Below, in pieces: positions 26,326-37,339 of a stretch of 64,000 nt of DNA. The notes below the pieces were generated by a model. That model saw only the letters and a program-made list of their open reading frames with translations, searched no databases and was not told the origin of the DNA. Both the position numbers and the translations under genes were made by a program. The stretch comes from Shimia sp. Alg240-R146 (GTDB lineage: Bacteria > Pseudomonadota > Alphaproteobacteria > Rhodobacterales > Rhodobacteraceae), in assembly GCF_947331465.1 (NCBI RefSeq), contig NZ_CAMZOK010000002.1, positions 1,178,001 through 1,242,000 on the forward strand. Reading direction: 5' to 3'. Every line of letters begins with the position of its first letter. The stretch's first letter is position 1.

Positions 26326-27513
26326 CTAAAACACAATCCTCGTACGCAAGCCAAACAACGTGATCACATCTTGGCCCGGGTTCAGCAATGGGTTGCTAAT
26401 CACCTGAACCGACGGCGTGATCTGCAATCCCGGTGAAATGCTGAACCGATAGAATGCCTCCAAGGTGACCTGATCCCCGGAGATGCCCCGTGCCTGCGCC
26501 CAGTTCAAACCCACGCCCGCCGCATCCGTGTTGCGGCCATAATAGGCCACACCCGCAGAGACCGATTTGTCATAAAGAGCTGCCGTGCCTTCGCTGATGC
26601 CTGCACGAAAAAACGGCATCCACTTATTGTCGACAAACCACGCCGCCGAAAACGCCGCACCATAGTCTTCCGCCCGCGACCCATCACTGGCTGCATCTGC
26701 ATGCCAAATCGTCAGGTGGATGTTGTCAAAGTAGATCCGGTCCGGGCTCGACGTGTATCCAACTTCGAGACTTTTAAAGAGGTTGCCGTGATCAAACACA
26801 TCAAGGTCAGGCTCTGTCGGATCGGCATTTGCATCCGCGAGACTCGCGACCACATAGACGTTGTCGCTAAATCTAAACCCACCAGCAATCCCCAAACCCG
26901 GATTTGGCGCATTGATCGTCGGGTTGGTATTAAACGCCAGGTTTTGAAAGCCGGAATAGGGGCTCACTGCCCCATAAAGGTCGAGAAAATCGGTCACGTC
27001 CAACTGCCCGAACTGCAGCGTCCAATTGCCACCCTCTGCCCGATGCGTCCAGAACAGATTGGTCAGCATCGTGCCGCTGCCGTTGAACGCTGTGCCTGTG
27101 ATCGACAAAGCGCCACCATCCAGCCCCAGAAACTGCGGCGCCACGGAACCAAACTTGTGCCGATCCTCAATCTTGAAGGTCAGGCTGCCGCGTTCCGTCG
27201 CTTGCCAGCTTCCATAGAGCCGGGCAATCCCGCCGCTGGCTTTACCAACCCCAAGATCGGCATTCCCCCATTGGCCAAGGGCAAGATAGTCAAAGTTGAA
27301 CTTCAGCCCCTTCTCCGCCAGCTCGTCTTTCCATGCAAACCAACCAGGAGCCACGCGGCGTGGGAAATCGCTTCGAAACTGCGGATCTGTCAGCCCGTCC
27401 CCCGGCGCGAGATCGGCCCCCACCGACGATGGACCGCTCAACCCCTGCGCGGACGCGAAACTGGTCAAACACCAGAGGCTGCCTATCGAAACAAGAGAAA
27501 TCATCTTTTTCAT
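26326..27513 (-). CDS. OprB-family carbohydrate-selective porin
   Basis: Outer-membrane beta-barrel porin of 395 residues with a signal peptide (MKKMISLVSIGSLWCLTSFASA). It has the OprB pattern: WFAWKDELAEKGLKFNFDYLALGQW near the start, alternating amphipathic strands, FQNLAFNTNPTINAPNPGLGIAGGFRF in the middle and a C-terminal strand ending in phenylalanine (RTRIVF), the signal for outer-membrane assembly. The ATG at 27513 has GGAG 8 nt upstream. Last gene of a three-gene minus-strand cassette, 15 bp after the barrel-protein gene. OprB proteins pass sugars, but here the partner is an amidohydrolase, so the substrate may differ. Confidence 0.88.
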   Translation of the reverse strand: MKKMISLVSIGSLWCLTSFASAQGLSGPSSVGADLAPGDGLTDPQFRSDFPRRVAPGWFAWKDELAEKGLKFNFDYLALGQWGNADLGVGKASGGIARLYGSWQATERGSLTFKIEDRHKFGSVAPQFLGLDGGALSITGTAFNGSGTMLTNLFWTHRAEGGNWTLQFGQLDVTDFLDLYGAVSPYSGFQNLAFNTNPTINAPNPGLGIAGGFRFSDNVYVVASLADANADPTEPDLDVFDHGNLFKSLEVGYTSSPDRIYFDNIHLTIWHADAASDGSRAEDYGAAFSAAWFVDNKWMPFFRAGISEGTAALYDKSVSAGVAYYGRNTDAAGVGLNWAQARGISGDQVTLEAFYRFSISPGLQITPSVQVISNPLLNPGQDVITLFGLRTRIVF

Positions 27514-27528
27514 GTGGGACACTCCAGC

Positions 27529-28419
27529 TTAATTCTTGATCGGCGCCAAAACAGCCGCCCGAGTTATGGCATCTTTTGGCGAAGGCGGAGCTTTCTGAAA
27601 TGGATTTTTCATAACAGGGCTTATTGTAAACGAATACGTCCAATCTTCGGCAAAGGCGTCCGCCTTGACCACATTTTTCTCCACAGAAAAATTCAGTTTC
27701 ACAATTCTATTTGCAATGCTGGTGGTCTTTGACACCGCAACTTGCACCGGAACGGTCCACGCCTCATCTGAAGGCGCATTCCAGTCGTAACTCATGGTTG
27801 GTCCTGTCCCAATCAACCATCCATTTCCGAGACCATAGAACAGGAAATACTGCAGTGACGTGATCGATGTAGCGGGTCCGCTACCGCCCACTTTCTCATT
27901 GTGAAACGGAAACACGCCCCATACGCCCCAATCGGTTGTGCGCACGGCAAGGGCGCTTGGACCAAGCAGCCAGTTTTCCGACGACAGGCTGTTGCCCGAG
28001 GGAAAGGAACCAACAGCACCGGCCCCAAATGTCCAATTCCCAGCCCCCCAAGAATACAACAGATCAAACGGCATATCGCCAAATCGACTGATGTTTTCAA
28101 AACGCCCCCTACCGTTGTCATAGCGCGGCTGTCCCCAAACATAGCTGAACGCAGGTCGGAAGATCAGGGTATTGCCATTGGACAACACAAACGGAAGAAC
28201 CGGCTGAAACGTCAACGTCGTACTGCTCTGATCGTCGGCCCCTGACAAATTTCCATCAAAGGTTCGATATTCCAGTTTGAAATTTAGCGTGGCGTTGGCC
28301 GCACCGGGGTTGGCCAACTCTTTCGCCAACTCTTCAATATTAGGCCCGACTTGCGCGCGCGCCAAAGTGCCAACCAAGGCGATCGAACAGGTCAACGCAA
28401 TTTTTAACAAATATCTCAA
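27529..28419 (-). CDS. Predicted outer-membrane beta-barrel protein, family not certain
   Basis: Exported protein of 296 residues starting at a TTG codon with a GGGG site upstream; the first 22 residues are a signal peptide ending LARAQ. The mature part alternates polar and aromatic residues and resembles outer-membrane transporter-like proteins annotated as MetA-pathway/phenol-degradation related: TLTFQPVLPFVLSNGNTLIFRP, SRFGDMPFDLLYSW, FGAGAVGSFPSG. Exact family unproven. It lies 56 bp downstream of the amidohydrolase gene and 15 bp before the porin gene, so all three are probably cotranscribed. Confidence 0.72.
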   Translation of the reverse strand: MRYLLKIALTCSIALVGTLARAQVGPNIEELAKELANPGAANATLNFKLEYRTFDGNLSGADDQSSTTLTFQPVLPFVLSNGNTLIFRPAFSYVWGQPRYDNGRGRFENISRFGDMPFDLLYSWGAGNWTFGAGAVGSFPSGNSLSSENWLLGPSALAVRTTDWGVWGVFPFHNEKVGGSGPATSITSLQYFLFYGLGNGWLIGTGPTMSYDWNAPSDEAWTVPVQVAVSKTTSIANRIVKLNFSVEKNVVKADAFAEDWTYSFTISPVMKNPFQKAPPSPKDAITRAAVLAPIKN

Positions 28420-28475
28420 GATAGCATCCCCAAATTGGACGGGGCGACACGAGGTAAAGCCGCCCCGCCAACCAT

Positions 28476-29861
28476 TTAGTTCAGCGTATTCTTATAGATT
28501 ACGCCGTCCTTCATGATGATACGGATGGTTTCAGGGCTGTCGGGACGTGGATCCGCGCCAAACCACTGATCCCCAGTGCCCACAACTGAGAAATCCTCCA
28601 GTGGATTGCCATCAATTAGCAAAATATCCGCATAGGCCCCCTCCTCGATCACACCCAGTTTCCCTTCAGCGTACGGGTTCATAAAGTCGCCAGACAAAGC
28701 CACCATTTCCCCACCGATTGACGTGATCGTCACCATCGATTGCACAGGCCCAAAAAACTCGTTGTTCAGATGCTTTTCATAAGCAATTTGGATGTTGCAG
28801 GCCTCAACGGACCCGACACAATCGGTCTGAAAGCCACGTTTCACAGGGCATTTCTTCATGTTGGGAATGTAGTTCTCAAACGTTGCCGACGCAGAAATAG
28901 CCTTGGCAAGGCTTGCAGGCTGGTTTTTAACTGCGGGCACATCCAAAAGCCCCGGGTCAAACGCCGTCAAGTTGGTCGAAATATACGCCCCCATCTCGTT
29001 CATTTTCTCGGCCACTTCGCAGTCAAAGGAAAATCCGTGCTCAATCGACATAACGCCAGCATTCAGCGCGTTCATCATCGCTTCTTTGCGGTAAGAATGT
29101 GCCATGACATACGACCCGTACTCAGTTGCAACCTGTACGGCAGCCTCGATTTCTTCGGGCGATCCCGCCAATAGCTGCCAAGGATCAAAAGCAGACACCA
29201 CGCCGCCCGATTGCATAAATTTTAACTGGGTAGCACCCATTCGAAAGTTATTGCGCCCGTACTTATAAATATCGTCCACGCCACTCACTTCCTGAGACAA
29301 GTTTAGGCGGCTAAAGTTAGTTGATGCTCCAGGGGGAGATGTAAACGTGGCAAAGTCGGCGTGCCCACCACGCGTGCCGACAAAAGCTGCGGACGGATAA
29401 AACCTTGGGCCCATAATCTGACCAGAATCAATCCAACGGCGCAAACCGGCGTTTGCTCCGCCCGCATCGCGCACTGTGGTAAACCCCTGCATCAAATACA
29501 TCTCGGCCATCTTGGTGCCATGAATAGCAAAGTCTTCCCAAGTTGTGTTTGCTTCCATCGCGCTCAGACTTGGACCCATCAGCATAAGGTGAGCATGGGT
29601 CTCAACAAAACCCGGCGTCAACGTGCGCCCGCCCCCGTCAATCACTTGCGCGTCCGGTGCGTCAATCGCATCAGTGCTCACCGTTTTGATCAGATTGCCT
29701 TCAATCAATACCGAGGCATTTTCGATCCGGGCTTCATTCACTCCGTCAAACACATGCACGTTTGTAAACAACACCTGCGGCATGGCTTCTTGGGCCTGAG
29801 CGGTTGTGGAAATCATCCCCGCGATTGCCACTACAACGCCAACCAATAGTTCCCTGTTCAT
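28476..29861 (-). CDS. Exported metal-dependent amidohydrolase (imidazolonepropionase-like)
   Basis: Predicted periplasmic or secreted hydrolase of 461 residues. The signal peptide (residues 1-24, ending TAQAQ) is followed by an amidohydrolase-superfamily barrel. VETHAHLM near residue 88 gives the two N-terminal histidine ligands. A likely carboxylated lysine lies in TQLKFMQSGG near 213, further histidines in VMAHSYRKEA and SIEHGFSFD, and the late aspartate in ALSGDFMNP. The final GKLGVIEEGAYADILLIDGNPLED segment is the usual C-terminal signature. Family members cleave cyclic amides, Xaa-Pro or Xaa-Arg dipeptides and lactones; the substrate here is unknown. First gene of the cassette with two outer-membrane proteins, divergent from an AraC regulator. 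Confidence 0.88.
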   Translation of the reverse strand: MNRELLVGVVVAIAGMISTTAQAQEAMPQVLFTNVHVFDGVNEARIENASVLIEGNLIKTVSTDAIDAPDAQVIDGGGRTLTPGFVETHAHLMLMGPSLSAMEANTTWEDFAIHGTKMAEMYLMQGFTTVRDAGGANAGLRRWIDSGQIMGPRFYPSAAFVGTRGGHADFATFTSPPGASTNFSRLNLSQEVSGVDDIYKYGRNNFRMGATQLKFMQSGGVVSAFDPWQLLAGSPEEIEAAVQVATEYGSYVMAHSYRKEAMMNALNAGVMSIEHGFSFDCEVAEKMNEMGAYISTNLTAFDPGLLDVPAVKNQPASLAKAISASATFENYIPNMKKCPVKRGFQTDCVGSVEACNIQIAYEKHLNNEFFGPVQSMVTITSIGGEMVALSGDFMNPYAEGKLGVIEEGAYADILLIDGNPLEDFSVVGTGDQWFGADPRPDSPETIRIIMKDGVIYKNTLN

Positions 29862-30007
29862 CGCAATTCTCCCGCTAAAAAAGTTAGTATAGGTTGATTA
29901 GCTACGAAGTTCCGGCCAATTTTGGATGAAATTTTCTACCTTATCACAAAAAATGGCCAAAACCTCCGTTCGGTCAGGCCCTAATCACGCAGACCAACGA
30001 GGTTTCT

Positions 30008-31000
30008 ATGCCCAGCAAACATGACGGTTTCATCCGTGCAGTCTTGGTTCTGCCGTTCATCGAAACGGCGCGGGCGCGTGGCGTTGATCCCCGTCCCATA
30101 CTCCAAAAATACGGCCTGACCCGCGAAGACCTTCGAGATCCCGAAAGAACCCTGCATGCAGAAGTGATATACGGTCTCACCAACAGGACTGCTGCGCTCT
30201 GTAAAGATCCCCATTTCGGCTTCCACGTTGCCGCAGCCTTTGACCTACGTCAGTGGCAGCCAACCAAAGACGCGCTGGCCCGGGCCCGCACTGTCGGCGA
30301 CTTTTACACGCGCTTCCTTTCGGTCGTCCCGCAACAAGCCAGCTCCGTGCGTCACAGCCTCGAAGTTACCGCACAGCACGCGACATACTCGGTGAACCGC
30401 AACGTGCAGACTCAAAACCTACCGGAACAAGTGGAAGGGTTCGGGATCGGTCTGCACCTTCGCCTTTTGGGCCTCGTTCTGGCTGGCCGCTGGGATGGAT
30501 CCAAAGTCACTCTGTTGACGCCGTTTCCCCACACCGTGCCGCACACACCTATGGGCGCGCAGGTCTCATCTCGAAATATCTCAGGGCTGGCGCTCAGGTT
30601 TCCCAGCAGTTGGCTCATCCTGCCATTCACGCAAAGAGACACGGAAAACATCGCCTCAACCACAGATGCCGGAGCGGATATCTCAATTATCGAAGCCCTA
30701 CGCGGTGTCGCCAGACCGCGCCTCGACGACCGGACTCTCTCGCTGACTGACTACGCAGATGAACTTGGCATTCCTCCACCTCGCCTGAAGGCCGCATTGC
30801 GGCTGCAAGACAGTACACTTTCAAAAGAAATCAAACGGTTACGTATAGATGTCGCCGAAGATATGTTGAAAGACTCAAAGCTGTCGGTCGCCGATATTGG
30901 GGAACGTCTCGGCTATCACGACCAATCCCATTTTACCCGTTTTTTCCGATCGCAAACCGGGCAAACACCGTTGCGGTTTCGCCGATCCAACGCGGATTGA
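30008..31000 (+). CDS. AraC-family regulator with arabinose-binding-like N-terminal domain
   Basis: Regulator of 330 residues. The N-terminal two thirds resemble the Arabinose_bd domain found in OruR/ArgR-type AraC proteins (FIRAVLVLPFIETARARGVDPRPILQ, then DPHFGFHVA). The C-terminal helix-turn-helix pair is at about residues 250-325 (IRHAEDM-type helix, ADIGERLGYHDQSHFTRFFRSQTGQTP). It is transcribed divergently from the amidohydrolase cassette with 146 bp between the starts. The obvious guess is control of that cassette. Confidence 0.88.
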   Translation: MPSKHDGFIRAVLVLPFIETARARGVDPRPILQKYGLTREDLRDPERTLHAEVIYGLTNRTAALCKDPHFGFHVAAAFDLRQWQPTKDALARARTVGDFYTRFLSVVPQQASSVRHSLEVTAQHATYSVNRNVQTQNLPEQVEGFGIGLHLRLLGLVLAGRWDGSKVTLLTPFPHTVPHTPMGAQVSSRNISGLALRFPSSWLILPFTQRDTENIASTTDAGADISIIEALRGVARPRLDDRTLSLTDYADELGIPPPRLKAALRLQDSTLSKEIKRLRIDVAEDMLKDSKLSVADIGERLGYHDQSHFTRFFRSQTGQTPLRFRRSNAD

Positions 31001-31028
31001 ACGCGCCTTCCAGATCTCAAAAACAAAA

Positions 31029-31050
31029 AACCCCACACCAAGGCGGGGTT
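31029..31050 (-). terminator. Terminator of the carbonic-anhydrase-like gene
   Basis: AACCCC / GGGGTT stem with a 10-nt loop, followed on the minus strand by a T-run. It lies 25 bp past the minus-strand stop codon. Confidence 0.75.
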
Positions 31051-31074
31051 CTGAAATCATCTTTGGCGACAATA

Positions 31075-31548
31075 TCAGGGCTGATATGGCAACGAGCTGT
31101 GGTGCAGGACAATCCGAAGCACGCCATCAGCATCTTTCTTGTAAGCAAAACTTTTATTGGCCTTGGTCACATTGCCGTCTTTGTCTGTAAAAATTCCCCA
31201 GCCCTGCCACATGGCCACATCGCCTTCGATAAAACTTGTCGCAGGTTGCAGCGCGACCTCACGCCATCCCAAAAGCGCAAATCCGCCATCCAGCGGGTAC
31301 TCGTCGTCATGGGCTACAAAATAGCTCAGAGCGCCTTTTTTGGTTGGGCGGAACGTCTGCTCGCCGCTGGCCAGCGTGGGTTTAAAGAGAACTGGACCAG
31401 CGTCGTATCCATAAGCGGCATCAATCACCTCTTCCGCCAGAGAACGCGCAGCGTCGATACCGCTTTCGTCATAAGCTTTGGAAATCGCCACAAGCCCTGC
31501 GCCCCAGTTTTCGCGCGCTTGGCTCAACTCTGCCTCGGTGATTGTCAT
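31075..31548 (-). CDS. Candidate iota-class carbonic anhydrase (COG4337-like)
   Basis: Small protein of 157 residues with an expected NTF2/SnoaL-like (CaMKII-association-type) cone fold. The signature stretch is strong: VLFKPT near residue 53, FRPTKKGALSYFV near 67, DGGFALLGW near 88 and RIVLHHSSLP near 145. These blocks match my recollection of COG4337 proteins, characterised in cyanobacteria and an alga as iota-class, metal-independent carbonic anhydrases. Database entries for relatives are sometimes misnamed phosphoribosyl-AMP cyclohydrolase. No signal peptide is seen, so a cytoplasmic enzyme is likely. The ATG at 31548 has a GGAGAGGG site. It stands alone with its own terminator. Confidence 0.68.
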   Translation of the reverse strand: MTITEAELSQARENWGAGLVAISKAYDESGIDAARSLAEEVIDAAYGYDAGPVLFKPTLASGEQTFRPTKKGALSYFVAHDDEYPLDGGFALLGWREVALQPATSFIEGDVAMWQGWGIFTDKDGNVTKANKSFAYKKDADGVLRIVLHHSSLPYQP

Positions 31549-31704
31549 GGCGCTATCCCTCTCCTCAGTGCCAAATTTCAAGCTATGTGAACGATCGCGG
31601 CCTCCGTTTCAAGAGAAAGAGAGCAGATTGTGTCAGCAATAGACTCACAAATTCCGTCGTGACGTCATCCTTGCTGTCCCCAAGACAACCGATAGCGTTG
31701 CGCC

Positions 31705-33964: not shown

Positions 33965-35074
33965 TTACCCTTCAGGCTCACTCACCGTGCCACCGCCAAC
34001 CAGTGCCATGACACCGGTCGTCGCCGGACAACTTGTTGGCAACCCGCGCGCAACACGCACCGCCAAATAGGCAAAGGCCTGCGCCTCCAGCATATCTCCG
34101 TCCAGCCCGACGTCCTCAACCGGCACCACCGGACAATCCAGAGACACCTGCAACATCTCCATCAAAACGGGATTGTGCCGACCACCACCGGTCACCAACA
34201 CGCGGCTCGGCGGCGTCGGGCAATGCGCCATGCCCTGTGCCACGCTGGCCGCGCACATCGCCGTCATCGTGGCCGCCGCGTCTTCATCTGACAATTCCCG
34301 AACCAAATCCATCATCTCTGGAAAATCGTTACGATCCAATGATTTAGGTGGCATACGTGAGAAATACGCCTCCTGCAAAAACAGCTCCAACGCGCCGGTC
34401 GCAACAGTCCCATCGGCGGCCACCCTGCCGCCCTCATCAAAATTCATCCCTCGCCGCGCCCGCAACAGATCGTTTAGCGGCGCATTGGCTGGCCCCGTAT
34501 CAAACGCCAACAACGCACCGACCTCTTCAGGCCCCGATTTGGACGGATCAACCCACGTTAAATTGCCAACGCCGCCCAAATTCAAAAACGCCACGGGCTC
34601 CGTTGCGCCAAACCACTTGGCGCAGGCAAAATGGAAAAACGGCGCCAAAGGCGCGCCCTCACCGCCCAACTCGACATCCGCTGTGCGGAAATCCCAAACC
34701 ACAGGCACGCCGAGCACCTCTGCAAGCGCTTGCCCGTCACCCACCTGACAAGTGCCACGTCCCTGCGGCTCATGCGCCAGTGTCTGGCCATGAAACCCCA
34801 CCAGCTCCGCGCCTTCAAACGCGCCAAGCGTCTCAACGTGTGCGGCCTCTACAACCTTGGCCGCCGCCTCAGCCTCTGGTCCCGACCAATGGCCCAACGC
34901 GGCCTCAAGAACCTGCTGCTCGTCGCGTGAATAGGCCCGATAATGGCTGGCGCCAAAGTGATGAATCACAACGCCGTCGGTCTCGACAATCGCCGCATCC
35001 ACCCCATCAAGAGATGTGCCCGACATCGCCCCCAGCGCCCGCAGCCATTTTTCGCCGCCATTGGCCTTCATCAT
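33965..35074 (-). CDS. anmK: Anhydro-N-acetylmuramic acid kinase
   Basis: Opens and phosphorylates 1,6-anhydro-MurNAc to MurNAc-6-phosphate in peptidoglycan recycling. 369 residues from the ATG at 35074 (a second ATG follows directly). The N-terminal phosphate-binding loop [15 protein letters not shown] is diagnostic; [59 protein letters not shown] and VTGGGRHN follow in order. The frame is open further upstream into tyrS, but a GAAGGAAAAGG site precedes 35074. It is divergent from tyrS with 63 bp between the starts. Confidence 0.96.
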
Positions 35075-35137
35075 GGCCTTTTCCTTCTGCTCATCCCCGC
35101 CTATACACAGGTTCACTGACAATACGGGATCGACACC

Positions 35138-36391
35138 ATGACCTACCAGCCCAAATCGGAATTTCTGACCGTGATGCTTGAGCGCGGCTTTGTGGCCGAT
35201 TGCACGGACTATGAGGCGCTCGACAATGCGCTGCTGAACGGTGTGGTTCCGGGCTATATCGGCTTTGATGCCACGGCCAAATCGCTGCACGTCGGCTCGC
35301 TGATCCAGATCATGATGCTGCGCTGGTTGCAGAAAACCGGCCACAAACCAATCACCCTGATGGGCGGCGGCACCACCAAAGTGGGCGACCCGTCTTTTCG
35401 CGCCGACGAACGCCCTCTGCTAACTGACGCACAGATCGACGACAACATCGCGGGTATCAAGCAAGTCTTTGCCAAATACCTCGACTACGGTGACGGCCAG
35501 TCCGATGCCCTGATGCTGAACAACGCCGAATGGCTGGACGATCTGAACTACCTGACATTTCTGCGCGATATCGGCCGGCACTTCTCGGTGAATCGCATGC
35601 TCAGCTTTGAAAGCGTGAAATCGCGCATCGACCGCGAGCAATCTCTGTCGTTCCTCGAATTCAACTACATGATCCTGCAGGCCTACGATTTCCTTGAATT
35701 GAACCGCCGCTACGGCTGCATGGTGCAATTTGGCGGCTCCGATCAGTGGGGCAATATCGTCAACGGCATCGACTTGACCCGTCGCGTCGATGACGGTCAG
35801 GTCTTTGGCCTAACCTCGCACCTGCTGACCACTTCTGACGGCAAAAAAATGGGCAAAACGGCGGACGGCGCGATCTGGCTGAACGCGGAAATGCGCTCGA
35901 CCTACGAATTCTGGCAGTTCTGGCGCAACACCACTGACGCCGACGTCGGCCGTTTCCTCAAGCTTTACACCGAAATGCCGGTGGATGAATGCGACCGCCT
36001 CGGCGCGTTGGAAGGCAGCGAAATCAACGCCGCCAAAATCATTCTCGCCAACGCAATTACAACGCTTTGCCACGGTGCCGACGCGGCTGCCGCAGCCGAA
36101 GCCACCGCCCGCGAAGTCTTTGAAAAAGGCGGCATTGGCGATGACCTTCCTACAGTGACCCTGACGGCCGCGGACCTCGGCGATGGCATCTCCATCGTGC
36201 AGCTGATCGTGAAAACCGGTCTTGCCAAATCCGGCAAGGACGCCAAACGCCTGATCAAGGAAAACGGCGCCAAACTGGACGACGCGCCGCTGACCGATGC
36301 TGGCCTGATGATTGACGCCGCCGCCCTGGCATCGCCGATCAAACTCAGCGCCGGCAAAAAACGCCACGCGCTGGTGCAGCTCGACCAATAA
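35138..36391 (+). CDS. tyrS: Tyrosyl-tRNA synthetase
   Basis: Charges tRNA-Tyr; class I synthetase, 417 residues. The HIGH-equivalent motif is HVGS at about 48-51 and the KMSKS-equivalent is KMGKT near 238. [27 protein letters not shown] and the C-terminal S4-like RNA-binding domain ([22 protein letters not shown] near 350) are all present. A strong terminator follows. Confidence 0.97.
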
Positions 36392-36415
36392 GCGCCAACA
36401 ACACCCCAACATCAC

Positions 36416-36446
36416 AAGGCTCGCCCAACTGGCGGGCCTTTTTTGC
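36416..36446 (+). terminator. Rho-independent terminator of tyrS
   Basis: Stem AAGGCTCGCC / GGCGGGCCTT (one G-U pair), 5-nt loop, then a T-run, 25 bp after the tyrS stop. Confidence 0.88.
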
Positions 36447-36464
36447 ATTTTCCTCTTGCCCAAC

Positions 36465-36515
36465 ATATCCTGGGGGAGTCGCAGTGCGCTGCGACGGAGG
36501 CTGGCCCCCGTATCC
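36465..36515. repeat. REP-like intergenic palindrome
   Basis: An inner perfect 7-bp hairpin (GTCGCAG-TGCG-CTGCGAC at 36478-36495) is enclosed by GGGGG / CCCCC arms. The flank TATCCTGGGGGAG resembles, by memory, dispersed GC-rich palindromes found between genes in roseobacters. Only one copy is seen in this window, so the repeat status is an inference. Confidence 0.4.
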
Positions 36516-36544
36516 CCTAGACACACACCTCCGCTTCAGGTTAT

Positions 36545-36562
36545 TTGAACACGCGTTCATTT
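36545..36562 (+). promoter_or_regulatory. Operator-like palindrome upstream of the HSD10-like gene
   Basis: TGAAC-ACGC-GTTCA inverted repeat (36546-36559) ending 24 bp before the ATG. Over 18 bp it matches 44324-44341, upstream of the acyl-CoA dehydrogenase gene, at 15 positions, and in the same orientation. Confidence 0.6.
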
Positions 36563-36583
36563 ACCCACCGGAGGAGCCCGCCC

Positions 36584-37339
36584 ATGAAACTCGACCAAAC
36601 CTGCGCCGTGATCACAGGCGGCGCGTCCGGCCTCGGCGAAGCCACCGCTCGCCATTTTGCCGCCAACGGCGCCAAAGTCGCGTTGTTTGACCTCAACGAG
36701 GAGCGCGGCACAGCGGTCGCAGCCGAACTCGGCGGCACCTTCCACAAAACCGACGTCACGGATGAGGCCAGCGTTGCCACCGCTATCGCTGCAGCCCACG
36801 ACGCCATGGGCTGCATCACCGCCGCCGTGAACTGCGCTGGCATCGCGCCTGCGGCCACCACCATCGGCAAAAATGGCCCGCACCCGCTGCACACGTTCCA
36901 GAAAACCATCGACATCAACCTTATTGGATCTTTCAACGTCGCGCGCCTTGCAGCCGAGGTGATCGCACAAAACGATCCCGAATCTGACGGCGCGCGCGGT
37001 GTGATCATCAACACCGCCTCGATTGCCGCCATGGACGGCCAACGTGGTCAGGCGGCCTATGCCGCGTCCAAAGGCGGTATTGTCGGTTTGTCTCTGCCCA
37101 TGGCGCGCGATCTGGCCCGCTCAGGCATCCGCGTAATGGCCATCGCGCCGGGTATTTTCCTGACACCGATGCTGCAAGGCTTGCCGCAAGAGGTGCAGGA
37201 TCAGTTGGCCGCAGACGTGACCAACCCCAAGCGTCTTGGCGATCCGTCTGAATACGCCAGTCTGGCAGGCTTCATAGTTGAAAACGGCTATCTCAACGGC
37301 GAAGTCATCCGCATCGACGGCGCCCTGCGCATGCAGTAA
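36584..37339 (+). CDS. Short-chain dehydrogenase, HSD10-like (3-hydroxyacyl-CoA / 2-methyl-3-hydroxybutyryl-CoA dehydrogenase type)
   Basis: NAD-dependent dehydrogenase of 251 residues. The Rossmann motif TGGASGLGEA lies near residue 11, NCAGIAPA near 85, a catalytic Ser in INTASIAAMDG and the YAASKGG (Tyr-x3-Lys) near 166. APGIFLTPMLQGLPQEVQ and NGEVIRIDGALRMQ at the C-terminus fit the HSD10/type II 3-hydroxyacyl-CoA dehydrogenase branch, which acts in isoleucine breakdown and beta-oxidation. A GGAGGAG site 7 nt upstream fixes the start at 36584. The shared operator ties it to the valine-catabolism operon 8 kb away. Confidence 0.87.
   Translation: MKLDQTCAVITGGASGLGEATARHFAANGAKVALFDLNEERGTAVAAELGGTFHKTDVTDEASVATAIAAAHDAMGCITAAVNCAGIAPAATTIGKNGPHPLHTFQKTIDINLIGSFNVARLAAEVIAQNDPESDGARGVIINTASIAAMDGQRGQAAYAASKGGIVGLSLPMARDLARSGIRVMAIAPGIFLTPMLQGLPQEVQDQLAADVTNPKRLGDPSEYASLAGFIVENGYLNGEVIRIDGALRMQ

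Follow-up and report, generated by a model that had tools for sequence, protein, structure and literature searches.

To our knowledge, all carbonic anhydrase (CA) classes other than the metal-free COG4337 type are metalloenzymes. Published work on COG4337 deals with structure, activity and a rare co-occurrence with COG4875. Described members include all2909 of Anabaena sp. PCC 7120 (7c5v/7c5w; Hirakawa et al. 2021, PMC8132391), in which mutation of T, Y, H or S of the pocket left no activity but mutation of K had no effect, and the triple-domain Bn86287 of Bigelowiella natans (7c5x/7c5y). Prokaryotic COG4337 members were reported to carry N-terminal signal peptides (PMC8132391). The iota-CAs of COG4875 (Thalassiosira pseudonana, Burkholderia territorii; related structure 3h51) share the cone-shaped barrel and the HHSS end. 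Here, a COG4337 gene without a leader was analysed in a 64,000-nucleotide stretch of Shimia sp. Alg240-R146 (contig NZ_CAMZOK010000002.1), referred to as the window. We put at about 0.8 the probability that its product is a cytoplasmic, metal-free housekeeping CA and the main supplier of bicarbonate, replacing the zinc-dependent beta-class CA (beta-CA) in this genome and in most carriers of a leaderless copy. The gene is located as follows:

31075 to 31548, minus strand: leaderless COG4337 (metal-independent iota-class) carbonic anhydrase gene, 157 residues, start ATG at 31548, stop TGA at 31077-31075

An initial annotation had placed a 157-residue protein with the blocks VLFKPT, FRPTKKGALSYFV, DGGFALLGW and RIVLHHSSLP at this interval. 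The interval was exact and all four blocks were found in its minus-strand translation; the strand had been left unstated, and the plus strand translates to an unrelated protein. The NCBIfam profile NF047901 ('metal-independent carbonic anhydrase') matched the protein at E 1.9e-56 with 190.7 bits, short of the equivalog cut-off of 350 bits, which was passed by 0/385 alphaproteobacterial genomes. Among solved structures, strong matches were confined to the iota-CAs 7c5x and 7c5v (163 bits over residues 2-156 for 7c5v), with none stronger outside COG4337, and identity to the crystallised all2909 was 52%; the homology spans the COG4337 domain of about 160 residues. These matches place the protein in the metal-independent iota-CA family COG4337, as the initial annotation had proposed. 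Such membership is ordinary, thousands of homologues being already known; none was found on viral contigs. In a Pfam search no model caught the protein, and neither PF01502 nor PF00484 was matched. Many databases would instead make it a phosphoribosyl-AMP cyclohydrolase (HisI), and the misnaming that the annotation had mentioned was indeed found, on at least nine plasmid records. That the name is correct is barely credible, given the missing PF01502 match, the lack of any related fold and the fact that the clusters of relatives described below contain the true HisI (PF01502, E 1e-27) as a separate gene. The sharing of these clusters is the likely source of the name.

An AlphaFold2 model of the protein (pLDDT, the predicted local distance difference test score, 94.5) was a cone-shaped alpha+beta barrel that superposed on 7c5v with Z 27.7 and a root-mean-square deviation (rmsd) of 0.9 Å over all 157 residues. 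Z was 15.4 for the COG4875-like 3h51 and at most 15 for other NTF2-like folds. Membership in COG4875, the Mn/Zn type, was rejected, 3h51 being far weaker than 7c5v and 7c5x; identity to 3h51 was about 25%, and the COG4875 enzymes were reported to be Mn- or Zn-dependent. The structural alignment was ungapped, with residues 1-157 of the model on 49-205 of the all2909 chain and 157 residues aligned, so that T106, Y124, F138, K180, H197 and S199 of all2909 correspond to T58, Y76, F90, K132, H149 and S151 here. The sequence alignment gave the same mapping, and T106, Y124, F138, H197 and S199 were invariant in all 73 alignment rows. The polar pocket and fold that had been predicted were thus borne out, T58, Y76, H149 and S151 all being present. 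The catalytic codons were assigned from both alignments and the published mutagenesis (PMC8132391):

31375 to 31377, minus strand: Thr58 codon, equivalent to the essential Thr106 of all2909
31321 to 31323, minus strand: Tyr76 codon, equivalent to the essential Tyr124 of all2909, the proposed proton shuttle
31093 to 31104, minus strand: His149-His150-Ser151-Ser152 codons, with His149 and Ser151 equivalent to His197 and Ser199 of all2909

By analogy, CO2 would be hydrated in the barrel with no metal, Thr58 and Tyr76, together with Ser151 and His149, deprotonating a water molecule that then attacks CO2. The whole domain and the T/Y/F/K/H/S pocket are shared with all2909, which differs in belonging to a leader-bearing clade, whereas in the window protein some 49 residues at the N-terminal end of the profile are missing. 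In Bn86287 each domain keeps the fold and the catalytic residues (rmsd 1.2 Å), but the protein has three domains in tandem, is plastid-targeted and carries Tyr at the position of Lys132. Many activities occur on the NTF2-like fold, and the other neighbours in the PDB are proteins of that kind, so the fold and pocket might have been kept for another reaction, as in an NTF2/SnoaL-like isomerase, hydrolase or sensor. We consider this improbable in view of the 52% full-length identity to an assayed CA, the retention of every active-site residue tested there and the inverse distribution with beta-CA given below.

The profile match began at position 50 of 205, which indicates a protein without a leader. 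In a tree of relatives, the window protein fell into a separately supported leaderless clade (A), set apart from the signal-peptide group of all2909 (B); besides these there were a short clade, also leaderless (C), and some smaller groups. The N-terminal signal peptide, a reported trait that does not define the family, is absent from the window protein and from clade A. The initial annotation had claimed the absence of a signal peptide, which held, and a cytoplasmic location, which the leaderless clade supports and which therefore appears probable.

The own genome is that of a Shimia-like marine member of the Rhodobacteraceae, is 100% complete and contains a single leaderless COG4337 gene. Beta-CA (PF00484) was absent from it and from the congener G210, alpha-CA was found neither in it nor in any of 44 genomes checked, and no PF08332 (COG4875-like) match was obtained in the own genome. 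A search of the own genome for LCIB gave no match in any control genome and therefore carries no information. Beta-CA, with which the proposed role of cytoplasmic CO2 hydration would be shared, is a zinc enzyme of unrelated fold. Its distribution was compared in a Rhodobacteraceae sample of one genome per genus and in a second sample from other alphaproteobacterial families. It was present in 261/295 Rhodobacteraceae and missing from 18/23 genomes with leaderless COG4337 versus 16/267 without COG4337 (p = 3e-15; p = 8e-13 for the exclusion when only genomes at least 90% complete were used). In the other families, 16/16 leaderless genomes lacked it versus 117/361 (p = 3e-8). Genomes with only the signal-peptide form of COG4337 kept beta-CA in 8/9 cases (p = 4e-5 versus leaderless); the leader-bearing G535 (L105) was without it. 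Within each of the genera g297 and g327, one species had COG4337 without beta-CA and another beta-CA without COG4337. Exclusion by the leaderless but not by the signal-peptide form is the pattern expected of a cytoplasmic substitute and not of a periplasmic enzyme; the leaderless enzyme would have taken over cytoplasmic CO2 hydration from beta-CA.

Several points weigh against this reading. The Fisher tests treat genomes as independent, and shared ancestry is incompletely corrected; the use of one genome per genus and the split over many families lessen this problem but do not remove it. Beta-CA is retained in five Rhodobacteraceae whose leaderless copy belongs to clade A, in one of them by a weak match only. 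In the work of Hirakawa et al. (PMC8132391), bicarbonate dehydration was not observed for the family, and the window enzyme may therefore not be a CA of the classical kind. The own genome also encodes two gamma-CA-like proteins of the hexapeptide type, one of which has the gamma-class site histidines, so the window protein may not be the only CA. Escherichia coli needs beta-CA in air despite having gamma-like homologues. A gamma-CA-like hexapeptide protein was present in 66/66 Rhodobacteraceae tested, with or without beta-CA, and thus does not explain the exclusion, but it may still be active.

Such a protein could be the everyday enzyme, with the COG4337 product a zinc-sparing back-up relevant only in low zinc. 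Apart from the ubiquity of the gamma-like protein, this alternative draws on one subclade of relatives. At nine Rhodobacteraceae loci, a ThrRS paralogue is found no more than a few kb from a COG4337 gene, and most of these loci also have a COG0523 (CobW-type) GTPase and a divergently oriented HisI; the domains of the cluster were confirmed at one locus, where HisI is a separate gene. A palindrome with the pattern TGTTATANNATAACA is present in the intergenic regions between hisI and cobW. A matrix built from seven intergenic sites also found sites at loci outside its training set, namely L022, L035, G056 and upstream of G053 COG0523 genes adjoining the COG4337 gene. From its form and context, we infer that the palindrome is a Zur box. 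Zur regulons are known to comprise HisI, ThrRS and gamma-CA paralogues along with COG0523 (Haas et al. 2009, PMC2770081); relatives' genes lie in such clusters and would follow the same logic of a zinc-free substitute, but the CAs described there belong to the gamma or beta class, COG4337 is not mentioned and the window gene has no such context. Near the window gene, no COG0523, HisI or ThrRS neighbours were found, and the matrix gave no Zur-like site upstream of it; its expression is therefore probably not zinc-controlled. These results, the equal presence of the gamma-like protein in genomes that keep beta-CA, which leaves the exclusion unexplained, and the failure of two streamlined leaderless-COG4337 genomes without beta-CA to give any gamma-like match make the back-up role unlikely, and everyday replacement of beta-CA is the reading that we prefer.

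In the tree, the zinc-cluster branch was nested within clade A. Whether clade A as a whole is an essential cytoplasmic replacement of beta-CA in many heterotrophs, including streamlined 1.4-Mb genomes without detected beta- or gamma-type CA, with a derived branch recruited to Zur-controlled zinc-sparing operons and a required housekeeping reaction thereby made metal-free in low-zinc waters, we regard as an evenly balanced question. The idea that, among leaderless genomes, retention of beta-CA coincides with the zinc cluster was rejected: only 2/5 of the retaining genomes (G226, G056) have the cluster, and G053 and G139 have COG0523 neighbours yet no beta-CA. Clade A copies with 64-72% identity to the window protein were also found in Acidimicrobiia, Acidobacteria and Gammaproteobacteria; this identity equals or exceeds that of many alphaproteobacterial copies and suggests horizontal spread.

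In the open-access literature (subscription papers were outside the scope), replacement of beta-CA by COG4337, a complementary distribution split by leader type and a link to zinc clusters were not found. What is added here is genomic evidence for a role, that of a metal-free enzyme replacing zinc beta-CA in the cytoplasm. With a bacterium that belongs to a culturable marine genus and has no alpha- or beta-CA and one leaderless COG4337 gene, the importance of a metal-free CA in the cell becomes directly testable. The apparent zinc-starvation clusters provide a genetic basis for the low-metal advantage that has been proposed and point to a cause for the misnaming in databases.

Other COG4337 and COG4875 branches were also recorded. 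Leaderless COG4337 genes were present in 1.4-Mb streamlined alphaproteobacterial genomes of families f9 and f30 (L099-L101, L106-L109) without beta-CA; the two lacking a gamma-like match belong to f30. Clade C (L067-L070, L111-L114; LFKPTLADVIRLD...HHSSLTW) is short, leaderless and far from all characterised members; every sampled carrier genome was without beta-CA, and copies of A, B and C co-occur in some genomes (G384). The only PF08332 COG4875-like match was in G037 (L094), a leaderless gene (HHSSMMPE) in a genome with neither beta-CA nor COG4337, and a parallel replacement of beta-CA is possible there. A Zur-like palindrome lies directly upstream of the signal-peptide COG4337 gene of G438 (L164 6855-6869) and another about 155 bp before a leaderless group-D gene of Marinomonas (L041), which suggests that other branches too may be under zinc control.

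Two local signals flank the window gene:

31549 to 31566, minus strand: purine-rich stretch (GAGGAGAGGGATAGCGCC) resembling a ribosome-binding site; GAGGAGAGGGAT ends a few bases before the ATG
31027 to 31052, minus strand: terminator-like hairpin with T tail, 23 bp past the stop, fold z = -2.8

The first is conserved in the Shimia relatives L002 and L003, and the start residue shared with close relatives supports the ATG. An operon partner was sought and none was found, the nearest genes being a convergent AraC gene and a divergent alpha/beta hydrolase gene; the description of a stand-alone gene with its own ribosome-binding site and terminator accordingly agreed with what was found. Across Shimia species the gene was present at 82-94% identity with syntenic neighbours. 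The closest copy, in Shimia sp. SK013 (L002), was 94% identical, which together with the synteny argues for a real gene and not a chance open reading frame. Synteny was limited to the nearest relatives. Between enolase and the CA gene, a 4.7-kb block (26326-31000) encodes an OprB-like porin, a second outer-membrane-like protein, an amidohydrolase and the AraC regulator; it is absent from Shimia sp. SK013, where about 1 kb separates enolase and the CA gene, and is partly kept in S. haliotis (L003). The S. haliotis locus yielded no fatty acid desaturase gene, and the AnmK-TyrRS-SDR block is inverted there (L003 1037-4448) relative to the window (33965-37339).
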